The notes beneath the pieces are model-generated. The model was given only the letters and a program-made list of their open reading frames with translations. It did no database searches and was not told where the DNA came from. Made by a program: the position numbers and the translations under genes. 64,000 nt of DNA, taken from contig JAUIGO010000001.1 in NCBI GenBank assembly GCA_030429955.1, positions 62,001 to 126,000 on the forward strand. The letters run 5' to 3'. Shown here in pieces: positions 16,917 through 48,330 of the stretch (within the stretch, counting starts at the first letter, position 1; each line of letters begins with the position of its first letter). The DNA comes from Bacteroidia bacterium (GTDB taxonomy: Bacteria > Bacteroidota > Bacteroidia > Flavobacteriales > Flavobacteriaceae).

Positions 16917-17246
16917 ATGATTAAAGTTTCTGAAACAGCTAAGAAAAAAGTTGTAGAACTTATGCAAGATGATGGCTTTAATCCAACAGAACATTACGTT
17001 CGTGTTGGCGTAAAAAGTGGTGGTTGCTCAGGCTTATCGTATGATCTAAAATTTGACAAAAGTCAAGAAGAAGATGATAAGGTATTTGAAGACAATGGTG
17101 TAAAAATTATTGTTGACAAAAAAAGTTTCTTGTATTTAATAGGAACTACACTAGAGTATTCAGGTGGTTTAAACGGAACAGGATTTGTATTTAATAACCC
17201 AAATGCAAACCGAACATGTGGTTGTGGCGAATCGTTTTCGCTATAA
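16917..17246 (+). CDS. sufA: A-type Fe-S carrier protein (SufA/IscA/HesB family)
   Basis: 109 residues. A-type carriers accept Fe-S clusters from the SufBCD scaffold and deliver them to apoproteins. The three ligand cysteines are in place: Cys37 in SGGCSGLSY and Cys101/Cys103 in RTCGCGESF. It is the first gene of the suf operon, followed 18 nt later by sufB, which supports a SufA role, though IscA-type naming is equally possible. Confidence 0.93.
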   Translation: MIKVSETAKKKVVELMQDDGFNPTEHYVRVGVKSGGCSGLSYDLKFDKSQEEDDKVFEDNGVKIIVDKKSFLYLIGTTLEYSGGLNGTGFVFNNPNANRTCGCGESFSL

Positions 17247-18751: not shown

Positions 18752-18778
18752 TGTCACACTGAGCGCAGTCGAAGTGTC
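18752..18778. repeat. REP-like intergenic repeat
   Basis: A 27-nt element between sufB and the lipoprotein gene with dyad ends ACACT and AGTGT. A 15-nt core (GAGCGCAGTCGAAGT, 18761-18775) recurs on the opposite strand at 48293-48307. Elements of this type are scattered in flavobacterial genomes. Confidence 0.6.
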
Positions 18779-18793
18779 TTAAGAATTAAAAAA

Positions 18794-19210
18794 ATGAAAA
18801 AAACACTTTTAATCTTAATCACAATTACAGCTTTTATAGCCTGTAAAAATGAAGCTAAGTCAGAGCCAAATGAAGAAGCTACTGATGTATCTCAACAAAG
18901 AACAGAAAAACAAAGTGATGGTTTAACACTGCTTAAAGGCGAGTTTATTTATTACGCTGATGCTGCTGTTTTGCAAACACATAAGCAAATGTACGCTGTT
19001 GTAATAGATGAAAAAATGCATGAGTTGGATGACATGGCACAACCATTTAAAAAAGAAGCGACCGATTTTGTTCAAGTTGAAATTAGAGGAAAAATAACAC
19101 CAAAACCTGAAAAAGAAGAAGGTTGGCCTTATCGTGTTGAAATAAAAGAAATATTAAATGTACAAGCTGCAAAGGAAAGCAGCGATATTGTAAAATTAGG
19201 AACTGAATAA
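18794..19210 (+). CDS. Lipoprotein inside the suf operon, possible NlpE-type OB domain
   Basis: 138 residues with signal MKKTLLILITITAFIAC (lipidated Cys17) and a Glu/Gln-rich linker. The globular part begins LLKGEFIYYADAAVL and contains FVQVEIRGKITPKPEKEEGW. This pattern recalls the 'ADAA' domain found in proteobacterial NlpE/META-type envelope-stress lipoproteins, where it is followed by a Cys and a ValXLeuGluGlyArg-like strand; here the Cys is absent. The match is by eye only. The stop is 1 nt before the sufC start, so translation is coupled to the Fe-S genes, although an exported lipoprotein has no known part in SUF assembly. Confidence 0.75.
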   Translation: MKKTLLILITITAFIACKNEAKSEPNEEATDVSQQRTEKQSDGLTLLKGEFIYYADAAVLQTHKQMYAVVIDEKMHELDDMAQPFKKEATDFVQVEIRGKITPKPEKEEGWPYRVEIKEILNVQAAKESSDIVKLGTE

Positions 19211-19211
19211 T

Positions 19212-19964
19212 ATGTTACAAATAAAAGATCTGCACGCAAGTGTTGAAGACAAAACAATTTTAAGAGGTATTAATCTTGAAGTGAAAGCTGGTGAAGTTCA
19301 TGCCATAATGGGACCTAATGGTTCTGGAAAAAGCACATTGGCATCAGTGATTGCAGGAAAAGAAGAATATGAAATTACTAAAGGAGATATCCTTTTTGAA
19401 GGTGAAAACATTGATGAATTAGCAGCTGAAGAGCGTGCGCATAAAGGGATCTTTATGTCGTTTCAATATCCTGTAGAAATTCCTGGAGTTAGCGTCACTA
19501 ACTTCATGAAAACTGCAATAAACGAAACTCGTAAAGCTAAAGGCCTTGAAGATATGCCAGCAAATGAAATGCTAAAACTCATTCGTGAAAAATCGGAACT
19601 GTTGGAAATTGACAGAAAGTTTTTGTCACGTTCGTTAAATCAAGGGTTTTCTGGTGGCGAAAAGAAACGTAACGAGATTTTCCAGATGGCCATGTTAGAG
19701 CCAAAACTTGCCATTCTTGATGAAACAGATTCAGGTTTGGATATCGATGCTTTGCGAATAGTTGCCAATGGTGTAAACAAACTTAAAAGCAAGGATAATG
19801 CAGTTATAGTAATTACGCACTATCAGCGTTTGTTAGATTATATTGTTCCTGATTTTGTACATGTATTGCACAACGGAAGAATTGTAAAATCTGGACCAAA
19901 AGAACTAGCTCATGAGCTAGAAGAAAAAGGATACGACTGGATTAAAGAAGAAGTAAACGCATAA
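19212..19964 (+). CDS. sufC: Fe-S assembly ATPase SufC
   Basis: 250 residues. An ABC-type ATPase that drives the SufB-SufD scaffold in the cytoplasm; it has no membrane partner. Walker A is GPNGSGKST (35-43), the signature is SGGEKKRNEIFQM, and Walker B is LAILDETDSGLD. The signature KKRNE is the SufC form. The start codon lies 1 nt after the preceding lipoprotein stop. Confidence 0.97.
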   Translation: MLQIKDLHASVEDKTILRGINLEVKAGEVHAIMGPNGSGKSTLASVIAGKEEYEITKGDILFEGENIDELAAEERAHKGIFMSFQYPVEIPGVSVTNFMKTAINETRKAKGLEDMPANEMLKLIREKSELLEIDRKFLSRSLNQGFSGGEKKRNEIFQMAMLEPKLAILDETDSGLDIDALRIVANGVNKLKSKDNAVIVITHYQRLLDYIVPDFVHVLHNGRIVKSGPKELAHELEEKGYDWIKEEVNA

Positions 19965-21369: not shown

Positions 21370-22584
21370 ATGTTTAACGTTGAAAACATACGTCAAGATT
21401 TTCCTATTCTTTCACGCAAAGTCAACGGTCAACCTCTTGTGTATTTTGATAATGCAGCAACATCTCAAACACCTCAGCAAGTCATTGATGTTATTGTAGA
21501 TTATTATTCAAATTACAACGCTAACATCCACAGAGGTGTGCATAGTTTAAGTCAAGAAGCTACTGATAAATACGAAGCTGCTAGGCATAAAATTCAGCAT
21601 CATTTTAATGCTGAAAAAGCACATGAAATCATCTTAACTTCTGGGACAACTCATGGCATTAACCTTGTTGCTAGTGGGTTTACTTCTCTTTTAAGTGCAA
21701 GTGATGAGATTATTGTATCAGCTTTAGAGCATCATAGTAATATTGTGCCTTGGCAAATGTTATGCGAAAAAACTGGAGCTACATTAAAAGTGATTCCAAT
21801 GAATGATGAAGGCGAATTGGTCATGAGTGCTTTTGATGAGTTGCTTTCAGATAACACAAAATTGGTATTTGTAAATCATATTTCAAACGCTTTAGGAACC
21901 ATAAATCCTATTGAAGATATTATTAAAAAGGCACATCAAGTTGGGGCAGCTGTATTGATTGATGGAGCGCAAGCTTGTCCTCATATTAAACCAGATGTTC
22001 AGGCTTTGGATGTTGATTTTTATGTGGCATCAGCACATAAAATGTGTGGTCCAACTGGAGTTGGAATGCTTTATGGAAAGGAAAAATGGCTAAATAAATT
22101 ACCTCCTTATCAAGGTGGTGGCGAGATGATAGCAGAGGTCACGTTTGAAAAAACAACGTATGCCGATTTACCTCATAAGTTTGAAGCAGGAACACCAAAC
22201 ATTTGTGGAGGTATTGCTTTTGGAGCAGCAATTGATTATTTAAATAGTATAGGATTTGATACTATAGCTCGTTATGAAAACGAATTGTTGGATTATGCTA
22301 CAAAACAACTTCTAACCATTGAAGGATTAAAAATTTACGGCACGTCACAACATAAAACATCTGTGATATCTTTCAATATTGGCACAATTCATCCTTATGA
22401 TATTGGTACTATTGTTGATAAACTTGGTATTGCAGTTAGAACTGGTCATCATTGTGCCCAACCCATTATGGATTATTACAAAATACCAGGAACCATAAGA
22501 GCATCTTTTGCGTTTTATAACACAAAAGCCGAAATTGATAAATTAGTTAATGCATTAAAAAAAGCGATAGAAATGTTGTCTTAA
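21370..22584 (+). CDS. sufS: Cysteine desulfurase SufS
   Basis: 404 residues from the ATG at 21370; the upstream extension (MSILGLTFKKTDR) overlaps sufD and is rejected. A PLP enzyme that removes sulfur from cysteine for cluster assembly. The PLP lysine is Lys224 (SAHKMCGPTG), the catalytic cysteine is Cys362 in RTGHHCAQPI, and the group II pattern with SALEHHSN is clear. Operates with SufE encoded three genes later. Confidence 0.96.
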   Translation: MFNVENIRQDFPILSRKVNGQPLVYFDNAATSQTPQQVIDVIVDYYSNYNANIHRGVHSLSQEATDKYEAARHKIQHHFNAEKAHEIILTSGTTHGINLVASGFTSLLSASDEIIVSALEHHSNIVPWQMLCEKTGATLKVIPMNDEGELVMSAFDELLSDNTKLVFVNHISNALGTINPIEDIIKKAHQVGAAVLIDGAQACPHIKPDVQALDVDFYVASAHKMCGPTGVGMLYGKEKWLNKLPPYQGGGEMIAEVTFEKTTYADLPHKFEAGTPNICGGIAFGAAIDYLNSIGFDTIARYENELLDYATKQLLTIEGLKIYGTSQHKTSVISFNIGTIHPYDIGTIVDKLGIAVRTGHHCAQPIMDYYKIPGTIRASFAFYNTKAEIDKLVNALKKAIEMLS

Positions 22585-22603: not shown

Positions 22604-23017
22604 ATGAATTTTAAAAAATTTAATTTCCTATTTACTTTAACACTTATTTTATTTGCCTCTTGTGCTAACAATGATGAGTCTAAAACACTTGAAGGAAATT
22701 GGGAAGTTACATCCATAAAAGAGATGTCTAGTTTTGAAGTGCCTCCAAATTTTTTAATCAATTTAGAAACTAAGAAAATTACAGGATTTTCAGGCTGTAA
22801 TCGTTTTTTTGGAACCATTACAACTCAAGGCAATGATTTATCTTTTAGTCAAATGGGAGGAACAAAAATGGCTTGCCCAGATTTTACAGTTGAAAACTTA
22901 TTTATTACAACAATTCCAGAAGTACAGTCATTTTCATTTAAAGATAATACATTGCAATTCAAGTCTGAAGCTGATGAAGTGATCATGACCATGAAACCTA
23001 TTGATAAAAAAGAGTAA
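22604..23017 (+). CDS. META domain lipoprotein inside the suf operon
   Basis: 137 residues with type II signal ending LILFASC (Cys20). The rest is a single META domain: LEGNWEVTSIKE, ITGFSGCNRFFGTI, MGGTKMACPDF. This is the HslJ-type fold, associated in other bacteria with envelope or heat stress and with novobiocin resistance (HslJ). It sits 19 nt after sufS and 28 nt before sufE, so it is co-transcribed with the Fe-S genes. No biochemical role is known for it in SUF. It is the second lipoprotein embedded in this operon. Confidence 0.88.
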   Translation: MNFKKFNFLFTLTLILFASCANNDESKTLEGNWEVTSIKEMSSFEVPPNFLINLETKKITGFSGCNRFFGTITTQGNDLSFSQMGGTKMACPDFTVENLFITTIPEVQSFSFKDNTLQFKSEADEVIMTMKPIDKKE

Positions 23018-48154: not shown

Positions 48155-48292
48155 CATCTAATTGTTTTAAAGATACAAAAATGAGTGCTTATTCAGGATT
48201 TCTTTTGATAAGAAATTGAAGATGTTTTAATAAGCCGTTCCAAAAAGGTTTCATATTAAACAAATATCGTAAAAAAAGAGATACTAAACAAT

Positions 48293-48307
48293 ACTTCGAC
48301 TGCGCTC
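48293..48307. repeat. Partial copy of the REP-like repeat
   Basis: ACTTCGACTGCGCTC is the reverse complement of the core at 18761-18775. The surrounding gap 48110-48330 has no ORF longer than about 21 codons. Confidence 0.55.
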
Positions 48308-48330
48308 TATGTAACAAAATAACCATGCAA

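Follow-up and report, generated by a model that had tools for sequence, protein, structure and literature searches.

The window analysed in the present study is the whole 64,000-nucleotide stretch of DNA from a member of the Flavobacteriaceae. It was observed that the window carries a suf operon on the + strand, with the gene order sufA-sufB-NlpE_C lipoprotein-sufC-sufD-sufS-META lipoprotein-sufE-DUF59-DUF2480. The Pfam scan of the operon covered eight proteins, and sufD and sufS were named by eye. The features are as follows:

16917-17246, + strand: sufA (HesB/IscA family); Pfam Fe-S_biosyn, 71.5 bits
17265-18713, + strand: sufB; Pfam SUFBD_core, 268.3 bits
18757-18776, + strand: short repeat in the 80-nt spacer between sufB and the lipoprotein gene, outside the conserved unit; found by a repeat search of the window
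18794-19210, + strand: lipoprotein with a predicted NlpE_C-type OB domain; Pfam NlpE_C, AlphaFold2 model, VIA-align and sufB-X-sufC position
Predicted parts of this lipoprotein: signal peptide, residues 1-16; lipid Cys17; low-confidence linker, about 18-40; OB domain, about 41-125
19212-19964, + strand: sufC (ATPase), starting 1 nt after the lipoprotein stop; Pfam ABC_tran, 92.9 bits
20043-21356, + strand: sufD; similarity to SufB and place, after sufC in relatives too
21370-22584, + strand: sufS (cysteine desulfurase; ATG within a longer GTG ORF); by eye, after sufD in relatives too
22604-23017, + strand: META-domain lipoprotein, the second envelope gene of the operon; Pfam META, 76.5 bits
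23046-23468, + strand: sufE; Pfam SufE, 163.9 bits
23543-23869, + strand: DUF59 / FeS_assembly_P protein; Pfam, 64 bits
23876-24388, + strand: DUF2480 protein; Pfam, 270.4 bits

The open reading frame at 18794-19210 starts with ATG, encodes 138 amino acids and has a lipobox (...FIAC) at Cys17. A preliminary description of this DNA had stated that the lipoprotein gene ends 1 nt before the sufC start codon, and this was confirmed: the TAA occupies 19208-19210, and a single T separates it from the sufC ATG at 19212. The corresponding gap had a median of 4 nt and was at most 10 nt in 62 of the 75 relatives' loci with a clear start. Both core motifs quoted in that description were found in the open reading frame, where GEFIYYADAAVL spans residues 49-60 and EIRGKITPKPEKEE spans residues 96-109. 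The operon had further been called otherwise standard, which holds except for the second lipoprotein (META) between sufS and sufE.

The 80-nt spacer upstream of the lipoprotein gene folded no better than shuffled sequences, the suf operon gave no Rfam match for a regulatory RNA at the gathering threshold, and promoter-like sites were at chance level. The repeat CACTGAGCGCAGTCGAAGTG at 18757-18776 has a copy with three mismatches on the opposite strand at 48292-48311, where none would be expected by chance. The META lipoprotein gene at 22604-23017 showed a synonymous divergence of 0.038 from its counterpart in the close relative L084, compared with 0.484 for sufS and 0.328 for sufE, so that this stretch looks as if it had been recently exchanged.

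Domain identity and lipid anchor

The Pfam NlpE_C family (PF17185) matched residues 47-111 of the suf lipoprotein with 30.5 bits, above the gathering cut-off of 22. When the homologues were searched singly, 12 of 36 matched NlpE_C at E<=0.001; for most members, therefore, sequence by itself gives no significant match. The lipoprotein reached 23.9 bits with the NCBIfam NlpE equivalog, far under its cut-off of 243, and a profile comparison showed weak similarity (probability 4) to a stand-alone NlpE_C protein from a different family. When the PDB was searched by sequence with the family profile, six matches resulted, of which five lay in the signal-peptide region and one was stray; a fold search was needed. 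We predicted the structure with AlphaFold2 from an alignment of the window protein with 75 proteins of named contigs. The model had a mean pLDDT of 78.2 and a pTM of 0.61 overall; block means were 93-98 at residues 41-120 and 83 at residues 121-130, and the linker at 18-36 stayed below 50. The top VIA-align match of the model was E. coli NlpE (2z4h_A, chain residues 123-214; Z 9.8 over 85 residues, rmsd 3.6), followed by a second NlpE chain (2z4i_A, Z 9.7), and the best match other than NlpE was a PriB with Z 7.0. Foldseek placed an AspRS OB domain first and NlpE at ranks 2, 4 and 5 (E 0.004-0.02), with nothing below 0.001. On the Pfam match and the predicted fold together, we regard it as established that the lipoprotein encoded at 18794-19210 carries an NlpE_C-type OB domain, which agrees with the NlpE-type C-terminal domain proposed earlier. 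The kinship with META proteins that had also been proposed was not borne out, since no META match (PF03724) was obtained for this protein at E<=5 and the META domain belongs to the separate gene at 22604-23017. The N-terminal domain of NlpE (PF04170) was absent from the suf lipoprotein and from the whole genome of the organism.

The residues after the lipid cysteine were compared among 101 distinct proteins of the family. The pattern C-K-N-(D/E) occurred in 76 of the 101, as against 3 of 124 lipoprotein-like open reading frames in the same loci. The available text of PMC5080379 gives C-X-K-(D/E)2 as the signal for surface export of lipoproteins in Capnocytophaga and describes it as varying between genera. 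None of the 101 proteins carried the signal in this Capnocytophaga form. Judging from its sequence, the suf lipoprotein most likely faces the periplasm.

Conservation of the gene between sufB and sufC

Among the genomes of 99 relatives, 39 matched the suf lipoprotein and 37 were kept, all of them within the 60 genomes of the organism's own family (f1). The two genomes dropped from the count (G087 and G095) matched residues 1-53 only, which is the signal-peptide region, and a second match in G018 was dropped likewise. The position between sufB and sufC was held in all 37 family genomes with the gene (30 + 7 loci). The remaining 23 of the 60 lacked a homologue: 18 had a sufB-sufC spacing of 10-119 nt, one had no sufB near sufC, and the gap held an MBL-fold lipoprotein in three and an unassigned 127-amino-acid lipoprotein in one. 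The latter protein (L217) was considered as a homologue and rejected, the profile comparison being borderline (51). Outside the family, 22 loci of the same order were examined and none showed a homologue. The absence from these loci and from 23 of 60 same-family genomes indicates that SUF works without the lipoprotein.

Searching 296 genomes of the order with a profile gave nine strong matches (E<=2.8e-26), all in the same family and all between sufB and sufC, although two of them (L229 and L230) were placed by position only; two of the genomes were also among the first 37. Matches with E>=4.7e-6 were dropped. Most of these ended before position 60 and one covered 83-121 only; the longer-running ones spanned 1-90 (G338), 1-107 (G393) and 1-95 (G086), with a few reaching 62-70. 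No suf gene was found near the dropped matches in G338 (L236) and G086 (L250), and the sole short lipoprotein reading frame at L236 was unlike the family.

Relatives of the lipoprotein were encoded on 111 stretches of the GTDB contig collection, and the best 80 of the 111 had the arrangement sufB-X-sufC without exception. These 80 named loci overlap the set of 37 genomes (10 identical proteins). Among them are loci of Winogradskyella, Bizionia, Lacinutrix, Hanstruepera, Psychroserpens, Mangrovimonas, Xanthomarina and Formosa, of unnamed Flavobacteriaceae, and a few labelled just Bacteroidia, Bacteroidetes or Flavobacteriales. Since the adjacency was kept in 80/80 named loci and in 37/37 same-family genomes, it is not a matter of chance, and the conserved place in other flavobacterial suf operons that the preliminary description had proposed was recovered. 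That description had named two outcomes beforehand that would speak against it, namely the lack of a structural match to NlpE and the absence of the gene from suf operons elsewhere, and neither came true.

On a tree of SufB and SufC with 82 tips, presence of the lipoprotein required 7 parsimony changes, whereas 200 shuffles needed 27 on average and never fewer than 21. Presence thus follows the tree, which favours descent together with the operon, accompanied by losses. The tree was midpoint-rooted and three genomes of the family (L027, L054 and L059) fell among other families, so that how often and in what sequence the gene was gained and lost can be read from it only tentatively. The dN/dS of the lipoprotein was 0.093 and 0.122 against two relatives, higher than the values of the suf genes for these same pairs (0.02-0.09 where computable). 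The suf lipoprotein is under purifying selection and is clearly constrained.

Envelope genes in other suf clusters

The gaps of the suf operon were found to hold further genes. A lipoprotein of about 290 amino acids with an MBL fold (HxHxDH-type motif by eye) occupied the sufB-sufC gap at L037, L038, L041, L123, L126 and L154. It stood directly before the NlpE_C lipoprotein at L123, L126 and L154 (by similarity), and in three genomes it was present without the NlpE_C lipoprotein, with a Pfam Lactamase_B match for one of these (L216). About 950 nt separate the NlpE_C gene of L226 from the last match to sufB, and another gene is probably inserted there. The sufS-sufE gap contained a META protein, a META protein with an extra, unassigned C-terminal part, a DUF4377 protein, an unassigned 142-amino-acid lipoprotein or a lipoprotein of about 350 amino acids. 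Of the 56 named loci that extend to sufE, 35 gave a META match. L104, L106 and L111 are examples of these varying lipoproteins. In family f5, genes judged by eye to be GNAT-like (two loci) or GxxExxY-like (one locus) sat in the sufB-sufC gap, which indicates that the gap is not reserved for envelope genes.

A separate NlpE-domain lipoprotein was observed inside the suf cluster in three of six examined genomes of a genus of family f5 (g111; L210-L212). The six had been chosen for having the NlpE N-domain somewhere, the proximity to suf was found by comparing positions by eye, and the domain was checked by Pfam for the L210 proteins, where PF04170 was the sole match of the NlpE-domain protein. 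The order in these three loci was sufA-sufB-solute-binding protein-hypothetical-NlpE-transthyretin-like-HbpS-like-sufC-sufD, so that the exported block lies within the sufB-sufC gap; two of them had an extra small gene between sufA and sufB. A fourth genome of the genus (L215) retained the transthyretin-like and HbpS-like genes only, and the other two had no such exported genes beside sufC. When 73 genomes of family f5 with the NlpE N-domain were compared with their sufC positions, the two lay within 2 kb in only three. No suf genes were found near the N-domain in L164-L180 and L181-L209 within about 1.5 kb on each side. At L164, L173, L174 and L176, a META match fell in the same locus of about 3.2 kb as the NlpE N-domain, possibly in one fused protein.

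The gene order of these clusters fits that of Riemerella anatipestifer genes RAYM_06457-06507 as given in the available text of PMC5609570, where RAYM_06487, 06497 and 06502 are missing from the listing. From this order, g111 would be a Riemerella-like genus. According to the same text, R. anatipestifer nlpE, sufA, sufB and sufD are induced by iron restriction whether or not fur is present, with values for nlpE of 1.28 in the wild type and 2.45 without fur (threshold |log2|>1) (PMC5609570). Its Table 3 also lists a four-helix protein, AcfC, a hypothetical protein and 5-hydroxyisourate hydrolase as raised in both strains (PMC5609570). The place of nlpE within the suf cluster goes unremarked in the available text of PMC5609570, and our literature search brought up no other mention of NlpE-type genes in the suf operons of flavobacteria. 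The NlpE of g111 and Riemerella probably arrived in the suf cluster independently. Because its architecture differs, with the N-domain as the sole Pfam match, the iron response of Riemerella applies to the suf lipoprotein by analogy only; as such an analogy, it supports an induction shared with suf.

Interpretation and comparison with known systems

SUF is a cytosolic machine. The fixed place between sufB and sufC suggests that the cell makes the lipoprotein and the Fe-S assembly proteins together under the same stress. In our preferred reading, to which we give an even chance, the gene encodes a lipid-anchored, periplasm-facing OB-fold lipoprotein translated from the suf mRNA and co-expressed with SUF under stress. 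The suf mRNA would then yield an envelope protein whenever extra Fe-S assembly is needed, as under iron limitation or oxidative or metal stress. The OB barrel would bind a protein or a small ligand of the envelope, which is the working step that we favour, and in this way would protect components of the envelope or of respiration that suffer from the same stress, or serve in their quality control. We favour such a role over signalling via Cpx or a disulfide. The lipobox, the OB domain, the place between sufB and sufC, the short distance to sufC, the purifying selection and the distribution along the SufBC tree are the observations behind this reading, and the anatomy of the locus supports an envelope protein that the suf operon produces. 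Co-transcription with suf, induction by iron or oxidative conditions in this species, the periplasmic side and the working step itself are what we infer.

Alternatively, the gene might be a passenger of the operon that entered it early in the family, has a general envelope job and gains from suf expression with no tie to Fe-S assembly. Its scattered occurrence, in 37 of 60 genomes and with 7 parsimony changes on the SufBC tree, the cytosolic-looking genes seen by eye in the same gap in family f5, and the use of these slots by several unrelated envelope families are in line with such a history. Against it, every match in the search of 99 relatives that extended past the signal-peptide region lay in the sufB-sufC slot, so that the gene was never seen apart from suf, and envelope proteins, including the separate NlpE-domain protein, have repeatedly arrived at the same junction. 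We consider this explanation rather unlikely.

The preliminary description had proposed a sensor that could couple envelope or metal stress with the demand for clusters; in such a role, the lipoprotein would detect envelope, redox or metal stress and signal to adjust SUF output. The predicted NlpE_C fold and the fixed linkage to suf fit this proposal, and the available text of PMC6593411 describes the C-domain of E. coli NlpE as sensing disulfide defects and surface contact, its disulfide taking part in the sensing, and the N-domain as activating Cpx upon lipoprotein-transport and copper stress. The core had been described earlier as lacking cysteine, and indeed no second cysteine beyond the lipid anchor was found in any of the 101 distinct mature proteins. 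That set omits six proteins whose start was not found by the script, L003 and L085, L117, L133, L134 and L163, the last five of which by eye have no second cysteine after the anchor. The NlpE N-domain, the part that activates Cpx in E. coli, is absent. The sensor domain of CpxA (CpxA_peri, PF16527) was found in none of 60 relatives including the organism's own genome, which is 93% complete, and the E. coli control was positive. No regulator was present among the eight operon proteins scanned with Pfam. The lack of a second cysteine, of the NlpE N-domain and of the CpxA sensor domain means that the Cpx-type and disulfide-type versions are disfavoured, and together with the lack of conserved His or Met it weakens the sensor proposal, which we now judge clearly unlikely. 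A partner kinase other than CpxA, or another kind of sensor, may be involved.

A broader model would give flavobacterial SUF a dedicated envelope arm. Here the suf-encoded OB, MBL-fold and META/DUF4377 lipoproteins, joined in the Riemerella-like genus by NlpE and by haem- and solute-binding proteins, would monitor or mend those parts of the periplasm and of the respiratory chain that are sensitive to iron and redox conditions. The state of these proteins would feed back on cluster assembly with neither CpxA nor a disulfide; this is speculative and quite improbable. A periplasmic buffer for metal (copper or iron) or haem that shields Fe-S clusters is very improbable: NlpE is CutF, linked with copper tolerance in the available text of PMC6593411, and the g111 suf cluster also encodes HbpS-like haem-family and solute-binding proteins, but the invariant columns of 36 homologues (M1, C17, L78, W111 and I120, with the lipid cysteine in 36/36) form no metal-binding signature, no His, no Met beyond Met1 and no Cys beyond the anchor is invariant or nearly so, and the His and Met counts of the OB domain vary, with zero His in some sequences.

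On the preferred reading, the significance of the locus lies in a lipoprotein that acts beyond the inner membrane while its gene keeps a fixed place between sufB and sufC in many genera, so that Fe-S demand and an envelope task would be handled together. The NlpE of another family in the suf cluster, with an iron-responsive counterpart order in the available text of PMC5609570, makes the link between envelope and SUF testable. The suf lipoprotein also offers a natural cysteine-free variant of NlpE_C for asking what the OB domain binds.

Several known systems can be compared with the suf lipoprotein. E. coli NlpE (PF17185; 2z4h, 2z4i) is likewise a lipid-anchored envelope protein and has the same OB fold as our model, whereas the suf lipoprotein is single-domain, without the N-terminal NlpE domain and the disulfide pair, and is linked to suf. 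Riemerella RAYM_06482, in the available text of PMC5609570, and its g111 counterparts (L210-L212) are also NlpE-family lipoproteins between sufB and sufC; unlike the suf lipoprotein, they have 243 amino acids and share the gap with several other exported proteins. The stand-alone NlpE_C lipoproteins of other Bacteroidota (L253 and L254) resemble it in size (121 and 126 amino acids), in their lipobox (by eye) and in an NlpE_C match over the cut-off, but have two cysteines in the domain (by eye) and no suf gene within 1.5 kb on either side. Finally, the HslJ/META lipoproteins are small envelope lipoproteins too, and one of them (22604-23017) lies within the same suf operon, but their domain is a different one from that of the NlpE_C lipoprotein.
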